This document shows positions 24,508 through 34,114 of a stretch of 64,000 nt of DNA, piece after piece; positions within the stretch are counted from its first letter, which is position 1, and every line of letters starts with the position of its first letter. Location: positions 186,001 to 250,000 of the forward strand of contig NZ_JACJPP010000018.1 of the NCBI RefSeq assembly GCF_014696135.1. The letters are read 5' to 3'. The translations under genes were made by a program, and so were the position numbers. Origin of the DNA: Nodosilinea sp. FACHB-141. GTDB lineage: Bacteria; Cyanobacteriota; Cyanobacteriia; Phormidesmidales; Phormidesmidaceae. The notes beneath the pieces were generated by a model. The model was not told where the DNA came from, did not search any database, and worked only from the letters and a program-made list of their open reading frames with translations.

Positions 24508-24783
24508 ACTGCTAGCCCAGGAAAGCATCACGCAGTTTTTACGGTGTCTGTACTGGGTGAATGCCCGCCCCCTTGCCTACCGGACGCAGTGGTGAATATA
24601 CCAGCGTCATGATCCTCCGCCTCTTTGTGAGTGGGGAGTGATTTTAGAGGAAAGTTGAGGTAGGCGATCGCGTTTGTCCAGTCGGCCCCGGCACCACATA
24701 CGATTAATCTATTGATTTGCTCTAGCCCAAGAACTGGGTTAGAGGCAAACGTGCCTAGTCTTACATCGCTAGAGGCCATGGGT

Positions 24784-25011
24784 ATGAAACAGATTCAGCA
24801 ATTCACAGCACTAATTGAACGAGACGATGATGCCTATGTGTCGCTATGTCCAGAGCTAGACATTGCTAGCCAGGGCGACACCGTTGAAGAAGCTAGAACC
24901 AATTTGATTGAAGCGATCGAGCTATTTTTTGAGGTTGCTGATCCGTCTGAAATTGCGTCGCGTCTCAAGTCTGAGGTCTTTATTACTCGGCTGGAGGTCA
25001 GCATTGGGTAA
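24784..25011 (+). CDS. hicB: HicB-family antitoxin
   Basis: A 75-residue HicB-type protein: FTALIERDDDAYVSLCPELDIASQGDTVEEARTNLIEAIELFFE, the degenerate RNase H-like fold of the antitoxin. No C-terminal DNA-binding helix-turn-helix is present, so it is of the short class. ATG at 24784 is used rather than 24712. Its end overlaps the start of the toxin gene by 8 bp. It would neutralise HicA by direct binding. Confidence 0.8.
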   Translation: MKQIQQFTALIERDDDAYVSLCPELDIASQGDTVEEARTNLIEAIELFFEVADPSEIASRLKSEVFITRLEVSIG

Positions 25012-25225
25012 GCTTAGAACCCTCTCTGGCAAGGAGGTCTGCAAAATTCTAGAACAGCAGGGCTTCACTCAGGTGCGTCAAAAGGGCAGTCATGTTGTCA
25101 TGCAAAAGCGCACCGAAGAGACAACTATCACTGTTCCTGTACCTGACCATAAGCAGCTCAAAACAGGAACCCTGTTGTCAATTATTCGACAATCGCAGCT
25201 AGCACGCTCTCTTTTCGAAAGTTAG
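25004..25225 (+). CDS. hicA: HicA-family mRNA interferase toxin
   Basis: A 73-residue HicA protein: LRTLSGKEVCKILEQQGFTQVRQKGSHVVMQKR, with the conserved active His in GSHVVM, then VPVPDHKQLKTGTLLSIIRQSQL. The dsRBD-like fold cleaves mRNA. The likely start is TTG at 25004, with GGAGGT at 24992-24997 seven bases upstream, overlapping the end of hicB. The order antitoxin then toxin is the reverse of classical hicAB but common in cyanobacteria. The toxin looks intact. Confidence 0.8.
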   Translation: MGKLRTLSGKEVCKILEQQGFTQVRQKGSHVVMQKRTEETTITVPVPDHKQLKTGTLLSIIRQSQLARSLFES

Positions 25226-25373: not shown

Positions 25374-27890
25374 ATGACTGTATCCGACCGGGTGATCTTT
25401 TTGCAGGAACGCACACCCCTCAGCGTGCTGCCCGAGCCTACTTTAGAGCCCCTCGCCCAAGCACTCCAGACCATCACCCTCACCGCCGGAGAGACCGTCG
25501 TTGAAGCGGACCAACCACCCCAGGGTCTCTACATTCTCTGGGAGGGCAAGCTCGGCACCGAGGCCACCCTCGGCGGTGCCAGCTTCTTGCCTGGCGCGGT
25601 GTTGAACTTGGAACCGCTGCTACTGGACCAGCCCGTTGAGCGAACCATTCAAACCCTCTGCGACAGCACCCTCTGGTTTATCGATCGCGACCAGTTTCAG
25701 GCCCTAGTGCAGCAGTACCCCGACATCTTGCAAACCTTTACCCGGCAGCTGGTGGATGTAGTCAAGCGGCTGTCGTCTGAGGCTGAGCTAGAGCAAGAGC
25801 GCCAGGCTATCCTGCGCCCCTACCTGGTGGCCAAGGCCCGACGGGGGGTGATTGGCCGCAGCCGCTACGCCACTCGGCTGCGGGCTCAGCTGCGCGAAGC
25901 GGCGGGCGATCGCAAATCGGTGCTCATCTTTGGCGAGCCGGGGCTAGAGAAAGACAACCTGGCAGCGCTGATTCACTTTGGCTCTAAGCAGCGGCAGCTG
26001 CCAATTATCAAGGTCAACTGCGGCCAGCTCCAGGCCAACGGGGCCGATCTGTTTGGCCGGGCGGGGGGGCGCATGGGGCTATTGGCGGCTCTGGGCCCAG
26101 GCACCCTGGTGCTCAACAACCCCAGAGAACTGGGGGCTGAGCTAGCGGAGGCGATCGCCGAGCTCATAGAGACCGGCCAATATCGCCCCGTCAGCCGCGA
26201 TGGCGAAATTGTCCCACCGGTCACCGCCGAAGCCCGCATTATTTTGCTGGCGGAACAAGCCGTGCCAGTTTTGGACGATGTGGTCGGCGAAACCATCAAG
26301 GTGCCCCCTCTACGGGTGCGCAAGGCTGACATCGAAGATTGGGTCAACTACTACCTATCACTGATCAGCCGCCGACGCAGCACCGGGCGGCTGACACTCA
26401 CCCCGGAGGCCGTCCGCCGCCTTCAGTCCTACGACTTCCCCGACAATCTGCGCGAGCTAGGGAATCTAGTGGAGCGGGCGGCGGCTCAGCTCTCGGGCGG
26501 CGGTCTGATCACCGAAGAGATCATCTGGCCCGCCCAGAGCAAAAAGAAACAGCTGCGGCTCAACCTGCTTAACCGCTACCCCGATCTGCGGCGGTTCTTG
26601 CGCAGCCCCTGGTGGCCCGATCGCATCAACTACGGCATTACCCTTACCCTGTTTGCCGTCGTCATCGCCGTACTCTGGTTTGGCCCTCAGCAGCGCCACG
26701 AGAATGTAGCCTTAACCGTGTTTTGGGCCTGGTGGTGGCCCCTGGTGCTGCTGAGCTTCCCCTTTGTGGGGCGGCTGTGGTGCGCCGTGTGCCCCTTTAT
26801 GATTTACGGCGAAGTCACCCAATGGATTTCACAAAAGCTGTTCCCCGGCAGGCTCAAACGCTGGCCCCGCGAGGCGGCCGAGCACTGGGGGGGCTGGTTT
26901 CTCTTTAGCCTATTCACCCTCATTCTGGTGTGGGAAGAGGTGTGGCACCTAGAGGATGCGGCCTACCTTTCTGCCTGCCTACTGCTGCTGATTACCGCCG
27001 GGGCGATGATCTTCTCGGCCCTGTTTGAACGGCGGTTTTGGTGCCGCTATCTGTGCCCCATCGGTGGCATGAACGGCATGTTCGCCAAACTCTCGATGAC
27101 TGAGCTGCGGGCACAGCAGGGCACCTGCTCGGCAGAGTGCACCACCTACCAGTGCTACAAGGGCGGTCCCCAAAAAGGGGAAGGCCAAGAAACCAACGGC
27201 TGCCCCCTCTACTCGCACCCGGCCCAGCTCGAAGACAACCGCGACTGCGTACTCTGCATGACCTGCCTCAAGGCCTGCCCCCACCGCTCGGTCGAGCTAA
27301 ACCTGCGGCCCCCCGGCATTGAGCTGTGGACGACGCACCGACCCCGCGCGTCTGAGGTGGCGTTGATGTTTCTGCTGCTGGGGGCGGTGTACCTGCATCG
27401 CCTGCCCGAGCTACAGACCCAGTTGGGTATTCAGCTGCCGATCGACACTGTCATTGGGCACAGCCTGGTGGCCTTTGGCGTGCTGGCGCTGCCCGCCCTG
27501 CTACCCCTCAGCGTCGAAGGCGCACACTGGCTCTGGCGCAAAACCCAGGGGCTGCCCCGGCGACCGGCGGTGAGGCTGGCCTACGGCTATCTACCCCTGG
27601 TGTGGGCAGCCAACCTGGCCCACTATCTGCGCCTAGGTCTAGGGGAAGGTGGGCGCATTTTGCCCGTGTCTTTAGCCACCTTTGGCGCCTCGGGGGTCAA
27701 TCTGCCGGTTTGGGTGGCCCACCCCGCAGTGGTAGCTTTTCTCCAGGGCGTAACGCTCCTGTTGGGCATGGCGCTGTCGGTTTGGCTGACAGTCAAAATC
27801 TGTCGCCAGTCTGGCCCCCAGCGGTGGATTCAGCACACCTGCACCGGGCTACTAGGGCTAAGCCTATGGTGGCTAATTCCAGGATTTTAA
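25374..27890 (+). CDS. Three-part fusion: cyclic-nucleotide-binding-like domain, degenerate sigma-54-activator AAA+ domain, NosR/NapH-type Fe-S membrane protein
   Basis: Residues about 10-135 form a cNMP-binding-like beta roll. About 155-385 match the AAA+ domain of sigma-54 activators (IGRSRYATRL, VKVNCGQL-like, VPPLRVRKADIEDW, FPDNLRELGNLVERA), but the Walker A site reads GEPGLEKD instead of GXXGTGKE, Walker B reads LVLNNP instead of LFLDEI, and the GAFTGA loop is missing. Residues about 415-838 are a multi-pass NosR/NapH-like protein with WCAVCP (C470, C473), WCRYLCP (C557, C561) and the ferredoxin motif CVLCMTCLKACP (C625-C635), with extra Cys at 585, 589, 594 and 610. The protein could couple signal binding to membrane electron transfer; the AAA+ part cannot act as an ATPase in the usual way. 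Cyanobacteria generally lack sigma-54, so it is probably not a transcription activator. Confidence 0.82.
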   Translation: MTVSDRVIFLQERTPLSVLPEPTLEPLAQALQTITLTAGETVVEADQPPQGLYILWEGKLGTEATLGGASFLPGAVLNLEPLLLDQPVERTIQTLCDSTLWFIDRDQFQALVQQYPDILQTFTRQLVDVVKRLSSEAELEQERQAILRPYLVAKARRGVIGRSRYATRLRAQLREAAGDRKSVLIFGEPGLEKDNLAALIHFGSKQRQLPIIKVNCGQLQANGADLFGRAGGRMGLLAALGPGTLVLNNPRELGAELAEAIAELIETGQYRPVSRDGEIVPPVTAEARIILLAEQAVPVLDDVVGETIKVPPLRVRKADIEDWVNYYLSLISRRRSTGRLTLTPEAVRRLQSYDFPDNLRELGNLVERAAAQLSGGGLITEEIIWPAQSKKKQLRLNLLNRYPDLRRFLRSPWWPDRINYGITLTLFAVVIAVLWFGPQQRHENVALTVFWAWWWPLVLLSFPFVGRLWCAVCPFMIYGEVTQWISQKLFPGRLKRWPREAAEHWGGWFLFSLFTLILVWEEVWHLEDAAYLSACLLLLITAGAMIFSALFERRFWCRYLCPIGGMNGMFAKLSMTELRAQQGTCSAECTTYQCYKGGPQKGEGQETNGCPLYSHPAQLEDNRDCVLCMTCLKACPHRSVELNLRPPGIELWTTHRPRASEVALMFLLLGAVYLHRLPELQTQLGIQLPIDTVIGHSLVAFGVLALPALLPLSVEGAHWLWRKTQGLPRRPAVRLAYGYLPLVWAANLAHYLRLGLGEGGRILPVSLATFGASGVNLPVWVAHPAVVAFLQGVTLLLGMALSVWLTVKICRQSGPQRWIQHTCTGLLGLSLWWLIPGF

Positions 27891-31163: not shown

Positions 31164-33299
31164 ATGACGGGAATCGAAATCGCTACCACGACTGCCATTA
31201 CTGCTGCTGCTTCTGGATTAACCAAAATTGCGATTGATGTTTTTAGAGATACCAGTGGTGGTTTTCTTGAGCATCTGAGGGGTGGCATGGATGAACGAAC
31301 TCGGACGTTCATTTTTCAAGCACTGCAAAAATACGTTGAGAGTTATCGGTATCGCCAATGCCAATTGAAGGTTTTAGGAATGCGTCAGCCGGTCGATCTA
31401 GAGGAGGTATACACATCGGTTCGATTGCTGAATACCCAAGACATCAAGGAGTTAGAGTCCATTGAGGCGCTAGAAAAAGCCTACCGAGAGCAAGGGCGAC
31501 GGGCATCGAGTGACTCCGAGAAAAAAGCAAAGCCTGGAATCGAGCTGGCTCGGGAAAAACAGTATTTGATGGTATTAGGCAGTCCAGGCGCAGGAAAATC
31601 GACCTTCTTACGGAAAATAGGTTTGGAAGCACTCAAAGGGAATAAAGGCGATTTGAGACATCGCTGCATTCCAGTTTTTATAGAACTCAAGCGATTAACT
31701 GAGTCAACTATCGACATTAAAAAGCTGATTGTGCAGGAATTTCAAACCTGTAGCTTCCCTAAAGCAGAAGAATTTACCAACCGTGCCCTCAAACAGGGAC
31801 GACTGCTTATTCTATTTGATGGCTTAGACGAAGTACCGACGGATAATCTCAACAACGCAATTCGCACAATTCAAGACTTTGTAGATCAATACAAAGCCAA
31901 CCGCTTCATTGCCTCCTGCCGCACTGCTGCCTATCGTACCAGTTTTAGGCAGTTTACTGATGTGGCTATGGCCAACTTTGATAACGCTCAGATGGAGCAG
32001 TTTATTACTAACTGGTTTAGCAACCCAGAAGACAAGCGAACTAACAAAGCCCAGACTTGCTGGGAGGTACTAGAACAACCCGAAAACCAAGCAGCCAAAG
32101 AGCTAGCCCAAACCCCTTTGTTGCTAACATTTCTGTGTTTGGTCTATGGACGGGCGCAGCGTTTCCCCGAAAACCGAGCCCAGCTCTATGGCAAAGCCCT
32201 GAGAATTTTACTAGAGGAGTGGGCTGCTGAGAAAGCCATTATGCAACGTGATATTTATGATGGGTTAAGCACAGAATTAGAAGAAGTAATGCTCGCTGAG
32301 ATTGCTTGCAAAGCGTTTATAAAAGATCAATTCTTCTTTAGTCGTCGAGAACTTGTAGCTGGAATCAAAACCTTTCTAGCCAGCAACTTAAATGCACCAC
32401 AACATTTGGATGGCGAGGCAGTATTAAATGCTATAGCCATTCAGCAGGGAGTTTTTATAGAACGAGCGGATGATGCTTATACGTTTTCTCATCTAACCCT
32501 GCAAGAATATCTGGTAGCTCAATATATAGTTGATCATCAGCGCACCTTGGAGCTTGTTACTAAGCACATGTTTGATAATCGATGGCGCGAGGTGTTTTTA
32601 CTTGTGCCAGGCTTAATGCGTGGTGGATCGAATGACTTACTCCTTCAAATTGAAGCGGAGGCATCAGCTCAACTCAATATTCCAGAGCTTCAAGCTTTCC
32701 TAGATTGGTCTAAACAGGCAACAGACGGTTCATCGGGAAGATTTAAGCCAGCAGCAAAGCGGGTTTTGGCAATTTACATTGCCCTTGCCCTTGCCCTTGC
32801 TCATTCCCAGTCCGACAGTAATTTCGGTATCGCTATTACCCATTCCCAACTCGATGCTGCTCGCAACTTAGCACGAGCACTTGATCCTCAGCTTGCCCAA
32901 TCCTATGCGCTTAATCGTGCTCGAGATCTTTACCGTGCAAAGGCTCTTGCACCCGATTTGACCATTGATCTTGCCTTGTCCCTAGATAAACTTAAAATCT
33001 TCAAATTTGCAAACTTTACAGACTTGATAGCAAAAGTCTCTGCTTCTGAATCTGACTCTAAGGATGAAAGCCAGTCTCACAAGATATTCGGTGAACCAGT
33101 AAATTGTATCTTAAAAATTTGGTGGGATACACTTCAAATCGATCCTACTTCACTCATACTCAAGGACAAAGAATTGAGAGCCTTAGAGAATTATTTTTAC
33201 GCCAATGAATTAATGGTGAAGTGTAAAGAAGCCGCTGTGCGGGTGACGCCAGAACTTTGGGCAGAGATTGAAGAACGAATGGTAACAGTAAGGGAATAA
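31164..33299 (+). CDS. NACHT-domain NTPase (NLR-like)
   Basis: A 711-residue STAND ATPase. An N-terminal helical region (1-130) precedes the NACHT module: Walker A GSPGAGKST at residues 139-147, Walker B LLILFDGLDEV at 214-224 with the DGLDE hallmark, sensor SCRTAAYR at 251-258, and a winged-helix segment ending YTFSHLTLQEYLVAQYI near 435. The C-terminal part (about 540-620) contains Ala/Leu/Asp/Arg-rich helical repeats (ALALALAHSQ, ARNLARALDPQLAQS) without a known effector domain. All NTP-binding residues are present. Bacterial NACHT proteins of this form are known or suspected anti-phage sensors; that role is inferred here. The gene is AT-richer than its neighbours and sits among REP elements, which supports acquisition. 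Confidence 0.85.
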   Translation: MTGIEIATTTAITAAASGLTKIAIDVFRDTSGGFLEHLRGGMDERTRTFIFQALQKYVESYRYRQCQLKVLGMRQPVDLEEVYTSVRLLNTQDIKELESIEALEKAYREQGRRASSDSEKKAKPGIELAREKQYLMVLGSPGAGKSTFLRKIGLEALKGNKGDLRHRCIPVFIELKRLTESTIDIKKLIVQEFQTCSFPKAEEFTNRALKQGRLLILFDGLDEVPTDNLNNAIRTIQDFVDQYKANRFIASCRTAAYRTSFRQFTDVAMANFDNAQMEQFITNWFSNPEDKRTNKAQTCWEVLEQPENQAAKELAQTPLLLTFLCLVYGRAQRFPENRAQLYGKALRILLEEWAAEKAIMQRDIYDGLSTELEEVMLAEIACKAFIKDQFFFSRRELVAGIKTFLASNLNAPQHLDGEAVLNAIAIQQGVFIERADDAYTFSHLTLQEYLVAQYIVDHQRTLELVTKHMFDNRWREVFLLVPGLMRGGSNDLLLQIEAEASAQLNIPELQAFLDWSKQATDGSSGRFKPAAKRVLAIYIALALALAHSQSDSNFGIAITHSQLDAARNLARALDPQLAQSYALNRARDLYRAKALAPDLTIDLALSLDKLKIFKFANFTDLIAKVSASESDSKDESQSHKIFGEPVNCILKIWWDTLQIDPTSLILKDKELRALENYFYANELMVKCKEAAVRVTPELWAEIEERMVTVRE

Positions 33300-33447: not shown

Positions 33448-33933
33448 CTATTCCCACGAATATCGATGCACACTCGAATACGCCCAATCCCTTGGGCTCT
33501 TCACCAACCCATGCTTTACAGGATTGAAATGAACGTACTCACAATGGTTAACAAAATCTCGCTCATCCCGAATAGCATGCTCCCAATAGCGCCGCTGCCA
33601 TAAATTCCCCTCCCTCCGCCGTTCCCCTGATGCGCTTTTCTCCAACGGCAGCGCCAGATCCTTGGCGCAGGCTTTCGTCACCATGAGCTTGATCAATCGC
33701 CAGCGTTTGGCATAGTCGGCATCGGTTTCTGGCAGCGTCAAAATGCAGTGAAAATGATCAGGCAACAGCACAAAGGCGTCGATCGCGAAGGGGTGTTTTC
33801 GGCGTACGGCAATGATGGCTTCTCGCAGGGCTTGTCGGCCAAGCTCAGTGCAAAGCCAGGGGTGGCGCTGATAGGTAACGTGAGTAAAAAAATAGCTACC
33901 GCCAGATCGGTATAGGCGTCGGTAATTGGGCAT
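33448..33933 (-). CDS. RAYT: REP-associated tyrosine transposase
   Basis: A 161-residue Y1/HUH single-strand transposase of the TnpA_REP type. YRRLYRSGGSYFFTHVTYQR opens the fold, the HUH motif is LPDHFHCILTLP, and the C-terminal segment has NLWQRRYWEHAIRDERDF and the RAYT-type ending YVHFNPVKHGLVKSPRDWAYSS. The nucleophilic Tyr is most likely in the RRYWEH helix region. ATG at 33933 is preferred over the upstream frame to 34029. RAYTs move or maintain REP elements; this one sits between two inverted copies of its probable substrate. Confidence 0.85.
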   Translation of the reverse strand: MPNYRRLYRSGGSYFFTHVTYQRHPWLCTELGRQALREAIIAVRRKHPFAIDAFVLLPDHFHCILTLPETDADYAKRWRLIKLMVTKACAKDLALPLEKSASGERRREGNLWQRRYWEHAIRDERDFVNHCEYVHFNPVKHGLVKSPRDWAYSSVHRYSWE

Positions 33934-34114
33934 TAACGTGAGGCGAAGAATTTTGCTTAGGGTGCCCGCGTTGTGGTCGGGATCTTGGGCGGGGGCGGGT
34001 TGTGTATTACTTCGGAGGCGATGTCGCACCTCAGCGCAATGGGCATTATCGGAGGCGATCGCACCAAATTTGGGCGGTTTTGTCTGCGGGGGAGATTGGT
34101 GGGTGGCGGGAGTG

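Follow-up and report, generated by a model that had tools for sequence, protein, structure and literature searches.

What a single protein might do with a domain of gene activators at one end and a membrane iron-sulfur (Fe-S) module at the other is the question raised by a gene of the cyanobacterium Nodosilinea sp. FACHB-141. The gene (25374-27890, forward strand, as are all features of its product given below) is an open reading frame (ORF) of 838 residues located in the window, the 64,000-nucleotide stretch at positions 186,001 to 250,000 of contig NZ_JACJPP010000018.1 that was analysed as a whole. Its product joins a CRP-like domain, a pseudo-AAA+ domain of the sigma-54-activator type and a NapH-type Fe-S membrane module, a make-up recognised in an earlier note drawn from the sequence alone, and borne out by Pfam domains and by relatives in single frames. 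With middling confidence, it is proposed here that proteins of this kind, denominated the slr1529 family, are membrane Fe-S electron-transfer proteins regulated by a cytosolic pseudo-AAA+ module, and are not transcription factors.

A fused protein family of cyanobacteria

Mis-assembly, or the accidental fusion of neighbouring genes, which the earlier note had considered, was ruled out, because near-full-length relatives in single frames exist across the order to which the strain belongs. Matches were found in 59 of 63 genomes of the order, and in 44, the window genome included, they are near full length in one frame; single-frame relatives share 54-99% identity with the window protein. Nodosilinea sp. 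FACHB-131 is the nearest named genome among the matches listed (97%). As the note supposed, the architecture is found elsewhere in cyanobacteria: 201 of the 291 sampled genomes of the class matched at 1e-50 or better, and so did 180 of the 261 good-quality ones. Among the 90 class genomes with no match at 1e-50, the listed ones include members of the families here called f20 (1.7-1.9 Mb) and f9. Contigs were scanned for relatives with patterns derived from the window protein and the best 80 of 124 loci were retained, a procedure which distant fusions could escape. A search of 72,556 plasmids matched 38 records; two, both cyanobacterial, span 80% of the query, and the rest match the AAA+ side only or the Fe-S side only. 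Ancestral forms with intact motifs may exist in other phyla.

Family members are of three types. Type A, the form found in the window, is widespread. Type B is a paralogue that shares about 40% identity with it. Members in family f20, whose genomes measure 1.7-3.7 Mb and are probably those of picocyanobacteria, make up type C. In a quick tree of the membrane module, whose root was not placed, type B and type C are each unified, both with a support of 100 in the Shimodaira-Hasegawa-like approximate likelihood ratio test (SH-aLRT). Rooting with Deinococcus and Natrinema sequences gave a support of 38 with very long branches. A type B profile matched 101 of 386 genomes of the phylum at 1e-100 or better, all in the class of the window genome, in a search that also picks up the other types; scores above 1000 bits were reached in 10 of the 386. 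The AlphaFold2 model of a type B protein was poor (mean predicted local distance difference test score, pLDDT, of 57.8), and was set aside.

The AAA+ domain is disabled but conserved

The AAA+ part is delimited by two Pfam matches, both above cut-off: Sigma54_activat (PF00158) at residues 160-278 (25851-26207; 1.5e-10) and the lid domain AAA_lid_14 (PF25601) at residues 314-387 (26313-26534; 1.4e-11). Six further, weaker matches to PF00158 are found in the window genome. The AlphaFold2 model of the window protein, built on 47 aligned sequences, has a mean pLDDT of 81, low values being confined to the Fe-S loop (581-638) and the hinge (387-393), and features an AAA+ fold. In a fold search spanning residues 154-389, where the AAA+ domain fills the match lists, the best PDB matches were entries for FleQ, DmpR, NtrC1 and PspF (Z 22-25 over 221-229 residues). 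The sigma-54-activator fold noticed at the outset is part of a predicted membrane Fe-S protein.

Conservation was counted in 145 representatives sharing less than 90% identity, and positions were called near-invariant when conserved in 95% of the 116 type A and type C representatives; a larger alignment of 183 rows contains the window protein up to three times (rows Q, L001 and L008). In the degenerate Walker B motif (GTLVLNNP, residues 243-250, 26100-26123) Asn-Asn takes the place of Asp-Glu. The Glu is replaced in all 139 representatives holding the position, by Asn in 129 and by other residues in 10; Asn is found there in 98 of 98 type A, 28 of 28 type B and 3 of 13 type C sequences. The Walker B Asp is replaced in 98 of 98 type A members, and kept in 15 of 28 type B and 9 of 13 type C members. 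The site of the missing GAFTGA loop is occupied by LFGRAGGRMG (residues 226-235, 26049-26078). Not one of the 145 representatives has a residue at the AFTGA columns, and 135 have residues on both sides of the site. The column of PspF R162, the first arginine finger, is similarly empty in 145 of 145, and no conserved Arg is present in that of R168. Walker B and GAFTGA have therefore been lost as the earlier note had claimed, and both losses are conserved.

The loss of Walker A claimed in the same note was not upheld. The P-loop (GEPGLEKDN, residues 187-195, 25932-25958) is modified yet conserved. All 139 representatives that span the region have its Lys, and all 111 of types A and C have the Asp next to it; K193 and D194 do not vary among the A and C sequences with the motif. 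Only the residue preceding the Lys, Gly in the canonical motif, is altered in most of these (86 of the 111 have Glu, 15 have Gly and 10 have Asn, Gln or Asp). The P-loop of type B is near-canonical, and fits the pattern [AG]x4GK[ST] in 26 of 28 sequences, with Ala at the first position in 16 of 28. As for homologues with intact motifs, none retains GAFTGA, whereas type B and 15 of the 111 A and C sequences have a complete or almost complete Walker A. On the membrane-module tree the Gly/non-Gly state of the P-loop changes at least six times. Of the 43 near-invariant positions in the AAA+ domain, 12 fall in an 18-residue segment round the P-loop (187-204), against 8 in the best segment elsewhere. 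The pattern is that of a domain disabled as a motor yet not decayed, which probably no longer hydrolyses ATP.

The AAA+ domain is doubled in one genus (g167; genomes G458, G464 and G471), where matches lie within frames of 1134-1137 codons. As read out in two of the three genomes (L213:643-4008 and L214:846-4211), the protein has 1121 residues, in which a CRP-like part is followed by a tandem AAA+ pair and the Fe-S module. The P-loops read GEAGVGKVN and GEPGLGKDN, and the Walker B sites LVLDH and LLLNN; the first copy features a GxxGxGK P-loop, and its Walker B site ends in Asp-His. The tandem form is confined to one genus, and therefore counts as one event.

The membrane iron-sulfur module

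No other part of the protein is as well conserved as the NapH-type module (residues 396-660, 26559-27353), defined by NCBIfam, model and conservation. Near-invariant positions number 105 of 265 there, 43 of 236 in the AAA+ part, 19 of 178 in the C-terminal part and 5 of 135 in the CRP-like part. Pfam Fer4_5 matches two stretches above cut-off (6e-8); Fer4 matches at 625-636 are below cut-off. The NCBIfam NapH/MauN profile matches residues 464-642 at 1e-16 with 61 bits, under its cut-off of 213, and by this score the protein is a relative of NapH, not a NapH.

Twelve cysteines, each conserved in 142-144 of the 145 representatives, are arranged in four motifs: CX2CP (C470 and C473, 26781-26795), CX3CP (C557 and C561, 27042-27059), an atypical CX3CX4CX15CP (C585, C589, C594 and C610, 27126-27206) and a ferredoxin-type CX2CX2CX3CP (C625, C628, C631 and C635, 27246-27281). 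By analogy with the family, the last two are presumed [4Fe-4S] sites. The one at 625-636 is canonical; the other has four conserved Cys residues at unusual spacing. A helical extension seen in the model and in the alignment (residues 661-838, 27354-27887) closes the protein. Nine membrane helices were read off the model, and the loops hold 24 Lys or Arg residues on the Fe-S side and 2 on the opposite one. In the model, the Fe-S side of the membrane is predicted to be the side of the N-terminal module.

Membrane ferredoxin-like proteins of the NapH, NosR and PceC type share with the window protein two Cys-Pro and two four-Cys motifs, 12 Cys in all in the comparison with E. coli NapH. The latter has CX3CP twice and CX2CX2CX3C twice, whereas the window protein has CX2CP as its first Cys-Pro motif and CX3CX4CX15CP as its first cluster motif, features an extra C-terminal helical block, and lacks an FMN_bind partner. 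No match to FMN_bind proteins was found in the window genome, which fits the report that extracytosolic flavinylation is strikingly underrepresented in Cyanobacteria, as stated in the available text of PMC8238504. Another relative is a 4Fe-4S protein encoded by a Deinococcus ficus plasmid (WP_027463891.1), 31% identical over residues 403-818, which shares the CX2CP motif, a CYKG motif and the C-terminal helical block. It has no CRP-like or AAA+ part, and its second motif is CX3C without Pro. This protein stands alone, and a relative of the Fe-S module therefore exists by itself elsewhere. An ORF of 308 residues (L139:5027-5950), with no Pfam or NCBIfam match, lies upstream and overlaps the stand-alone gene; it possibly encodes a partner protein.

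The CRP-like domain

Residues 35-115 (25476-25718) match Pfam cNMP_binding (PF00027; 1.5e-11, 44.6 bits against a cut-off of 27.5), and the CRP-like part gave a PDB sequence match to the regulator Cmr (1.7e-5). The canonical Glu of the phosphate-binding cassette is absent. At position 79, where it is expected, none of the type A (90) and type B (27) representatives that span the site has a Glu. Arg, expected at about position 90, is present in 8 of 91 type A and in 0 of 27 type B sequences, the placement of this column being alignment-dependent. All 20 type C members lack the domain. Ligand sensing of cyclic-nucleotide type, as envisaged in the earlier note, is thus doubtful, and the candidate role of cyclic AMP or cyclic GMP sensor is weakened by the absent Glu, the non-conserved Arg and the loss of the domain in type C.

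The Fe-S module is complete in 178 members, 34 of which miss the CRP-like part: 19 belong to type C, 7 have no remnant of it in the adjoining DNA (L116, L190-L194 and L205), 2 lie at contig ends (L107 and L123) and 6 keep it in a neighbouring or cut piece. At least 26 losses, mostly in type C, are apparently real. The AAA+ region is kept in 173 of the 178, and the other five are split frames or contig-end cuts. By these figures the bond with the Fe-S module is closer for the AAA+ domain than for the CRP-like part.

Sigma-54 and the label of nitrogen regulator

The sigma-54 family PF04552 was not detected in the window genome, and only 2 of 386 genomes of the phylum have a match above cut-off (9 more have one below), as expected from the note's remark that cyanobacteria generally lack this factor; sigma-54 activation is excluded for practical purposes on this ground. 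One of the two matches, in a genome of family f7 (G187:C1:411956-412339), is a partial match to the sigma-54 DNA-binding domain (62 bits, 127 profile positions), which is surprising in a cyanobacterium and could be contamination or a remnant. The other, in G284, scores 23.1 bits against a cut-off of 22.8.

A role as a sigma-54-dependent activator was rejected, since GAFTGA and the Walker B Glu are missing and sigma-54 is essentially absent. No DNA-binding or helix-turn-helix domain was matched in Pfam up to an E value of 1, and the C-terminus is a membrane-type module. Bacterial enhancer-binding proteins such as NtrC1, FleQ, PspF and NifA share the fold of AAA+ core and lid, at about 20-30% identity; unlike them, the window protein lacks GAFTGA, the Walker B Glu, the R162-type finger and a DNA-binding domain. 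VpsR, a relative of enhancer-binding proteins, was matched both by sequence and by fold. VpsR works without sigma-54 and is a soluble DNA-binding regulator, whereas the window protein is a membrane Fe-S fusion. The label of nitrogen regulator carried by the family is probably wrong, and such proteins were apparently filed as nitrogen or transcription regulators because of the AAA+ domain.

Gene context of the three types

Gene neighbourhoods were compared at 182 loci (127 of type A, 35 of type B and 20 of type C). Neighbours of type C differ from locus to locus. Type B is linked to cysK, which is found in the same orientation no more than 1 kb downstream at 23 of 35 loci, at some of them with a small or opposite ORF in between; cysK is found anywhere within 6 kb on either side at 2 of 127 type A and at 0 of 20 type C loci. 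Other neighbours of type B encode rhodanese (10 of 35 loci), a PetC-type Rieske protein (7), a 2-nitropropane-dioxygenase/FabK-like protein (6) and DUF3122 (5), as well as metallo-beta-lactamase, TauE, ArsR, an ArsE-like thioredoxin and psbA (4 each). Annotated records of type B loci feature the same mix. At least one of 16 sulfur or low-oxygen markers is present at 30 of 35 type B, 3 of 127 type A and 4 of 20 type C loci, and at least two at 19 of 35, 0 of 127 and 2 of 20, the markers having been picked from the B loci, the loci being related, and the mean flanks measuring 6.7 kb for A, 9.1 kb for B and 11.8 kb for C. The usual roles of the neighbouring gene families suggest a link of type B to sulfide and low oxygen.

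Some single loci may be mentioned. In genome G346 of family f29 (L198:5312-9520), a psbA copy lies just upstream of the type B gene and cysK less than 1 kb downstream, a photosystem II gene being thus found inside a putative sulfide/low-oxygen island. At L208:1609-5396 the type B gene lies next to genes for HdrA- and HdrB-like subunits, both below curated cut-offs; L201 hosts a like arrangement. Within the window itself, a HicA toxin-like ORF (PF07927, 3.1e-19) is located just upstream of the gene, together with a partner whose weak match to HicB stays under the cut-off (24712-25225). Farther downstream, a NACHT-domain protein (31164-33299; Pfam NACHT 3.6e-16, PADLOC PDC-S60 5e-14) is encoded beside an IS200/Y1-type transposase-like ORF (33448-34029) of the other strand; the former is possibly a defence gene with a mobile neighbour.

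The probable Synechocystis member

The family member of Synechocystis PCC 6803 is probably slr1529, of type A. Downstream of the family member in Synechocystis salina (L113), the first ORFs on its strand, with other-strand ORFs in between, resemble ScpA and Ffh in sequence. This order fits slr1529-1530-1531, slr1531 being Ffh (available text of PMC12475003), and supports the identification. The gene slr0593, also taken into account, was dropped, as gene order favours slr1529.

In the accessible parts of two papers (PMC3516471, PMC4182526) slr1529, or ntrX, is named a nitrogen assimilation regulatory protein and treated as a transcriptional or nitrogen regulator, and the membrane Fe-S half is not mentioned in those parts. 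Its transcript ratio was 0.29 at high copper (PMC4182526), and under iron deprivation a transient log2 change of -1.17 was seen at 12 h (PMC3516471). As far as the available text of PMC5318462 tells, four regulator mutants grew differently in BG11, the slr1529 knockout not being one of them; it does belong to the six whose metabolites changed most significantly at 72 h. Such a phenotype is compatible with a redox or regulatory role that is not essential, and does not discriminate between the explanations weighed below.

Proposed function and alternatives

The domain make-up, the conserved losses, the conservation of P-loop and cysteines, the absence of sigma-54 and the link of type B to cysK are observed; the Fe-S cofactors, the topology, the link to quinone, the gating and the loss of ATP hydrolysis are inferred. 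As a protein of NapH/NosR kind, the membrane module probably takes electrons from, or gives them to, the plastoquinone pool, along a path that would comprise the two helices with Cys-Pro motifs and the two cytosolic [4Fe-4S] clusters. The module derived from sigma-54 activators would lie on the same, cytosolic side, and would neither hydrolyse ATP nor contact RNA polymerase. Through the retained P-loop it may sense a nucleotide or the charge state, or it may oligomerise, or both, and in this way gate or dock electron transfer. Type B would be a specialised copy, working in sulfide/low-oxygen gene islands beside cysteine synthase. A scaffold or regulatory linker, as the earlier note put it, is a plausible role for the AAA+ domain. 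A more specific variant, in which the P-loop Glu replaces the bound phosphate in the common form and type B still binds nucleotide, making the domain a nucleotide- or charge-sensing gate, is offered as tentative.

Several observations weigh against this proposal. Glu replaces the usual phosphate-binding Gly in the P-loop of most type A members, and 27 of 29 type B sequences have lost the sensor II Arg. No conserved neighbour names a partner for type A, the commonest neighbour family being found at 14 of 66 named loci. Five of the 35 type B loci host no marker at all, and the marker linkage is descriptive, given the origin of the markers, the relatedness of the loci and the unequal flanks. Model confidence is low in the Fe-S loop, where residues 581-630 have a pLDDT below 50. 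A hydropathy scan detects only about six strong membrane segments; the nine helices come from the model, and the topology is for this reason a prediction.

The Fe-S clusters might alternatively serve as a redox sensor and not as a wire, reporting the redox state of the membrane while the pseudo-AAA+/CRP-like part binds a regulator or an enzyme to pass on the signal, with no net electron transfer. The descent of the cytosolic part from regulators agrees with this, as do the position of type B among stress-type genes and the altered metabolites, with no growth change reported in the available text, of the slr1529 mutant (PMC5318462). The membrane module is however more conserved than the supposed regulatory part, all 20 type C members do without the CRP-like domain, and no conserved regulator adjoins type A; a sensor is possible, but on balance improbable. 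A maturation or metal-reductase factor, supplying electrons for the assembly of a metal or sulfur site in another enzyme, is an unlikely alternative, suggested by likeness to the roles of NosR and CcoG and by the NapH-type cysteine layout. The lower slr1529 transcript at high copper and, transiently, under iron deprivation would fit it (available text of PMC4182526 and PMC3516471), but both changes sit in lists with many other genes, and no conserved neighbour of type A suggests a metalloenzyme, Nos, cbb3 and copper genes not having been searched specifically.

That the AAA+ part is no more than a structural remnant or spacer, binding no ligand and regulating nothing, could be argued from the fact that no representative spanning the region retains the Walker B Glu, GAFTGA or the R162-type finger. 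This is very unlikely: the P-loop Lys is universal among the 139 sequences, conservation within the domain is densest at the P-loop, the AAA+ region is absent from no intact member, and its doubling in one genus is hard to reconcile with a mere relic. Hardly credible is a transcription activator as annotated, NtrC/NtrX-like and perhaps independent of sigma-54 in the manner of VpsR. The AAA+ fold does belong to that family, and the database name points the same way, but a helix-turn-helix match is missing, the C-terminus is of membrane type, GAFTGA is absent, and so is sigma-54 from the genome.

Significance

The open-access literature searched yielded no description of the CRP-like/AAA+/Fe-S architecture, of its disabling pattern or of the sulfide-island paralogue, and no functional description of the family, in keeping with the note's impression that its function is undescribed. 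The parts are each of a known kind; their fusion, the conserved disabling pattern and the paralogue in putative sulfide islands are apparently new. The family can be tested in a model strain, for which the slr1529 knockout has already been published (PMC5318462). If the proposed function is correct, the family would add a hitherto unknown component to electron flow in photosynthesis or respiration and clearly exemplify how the motor of a gene activator can be put to use outside transcription, and type B would be a lead to the handling of sulfide and low oxygen by cyanobacteria. Should the AAA+ domain act as a gate of the kind tentatively described above, these proteins would represent a new class of redox proteins controlled by a pseudo-ATPase, present in most cyanobacteria.

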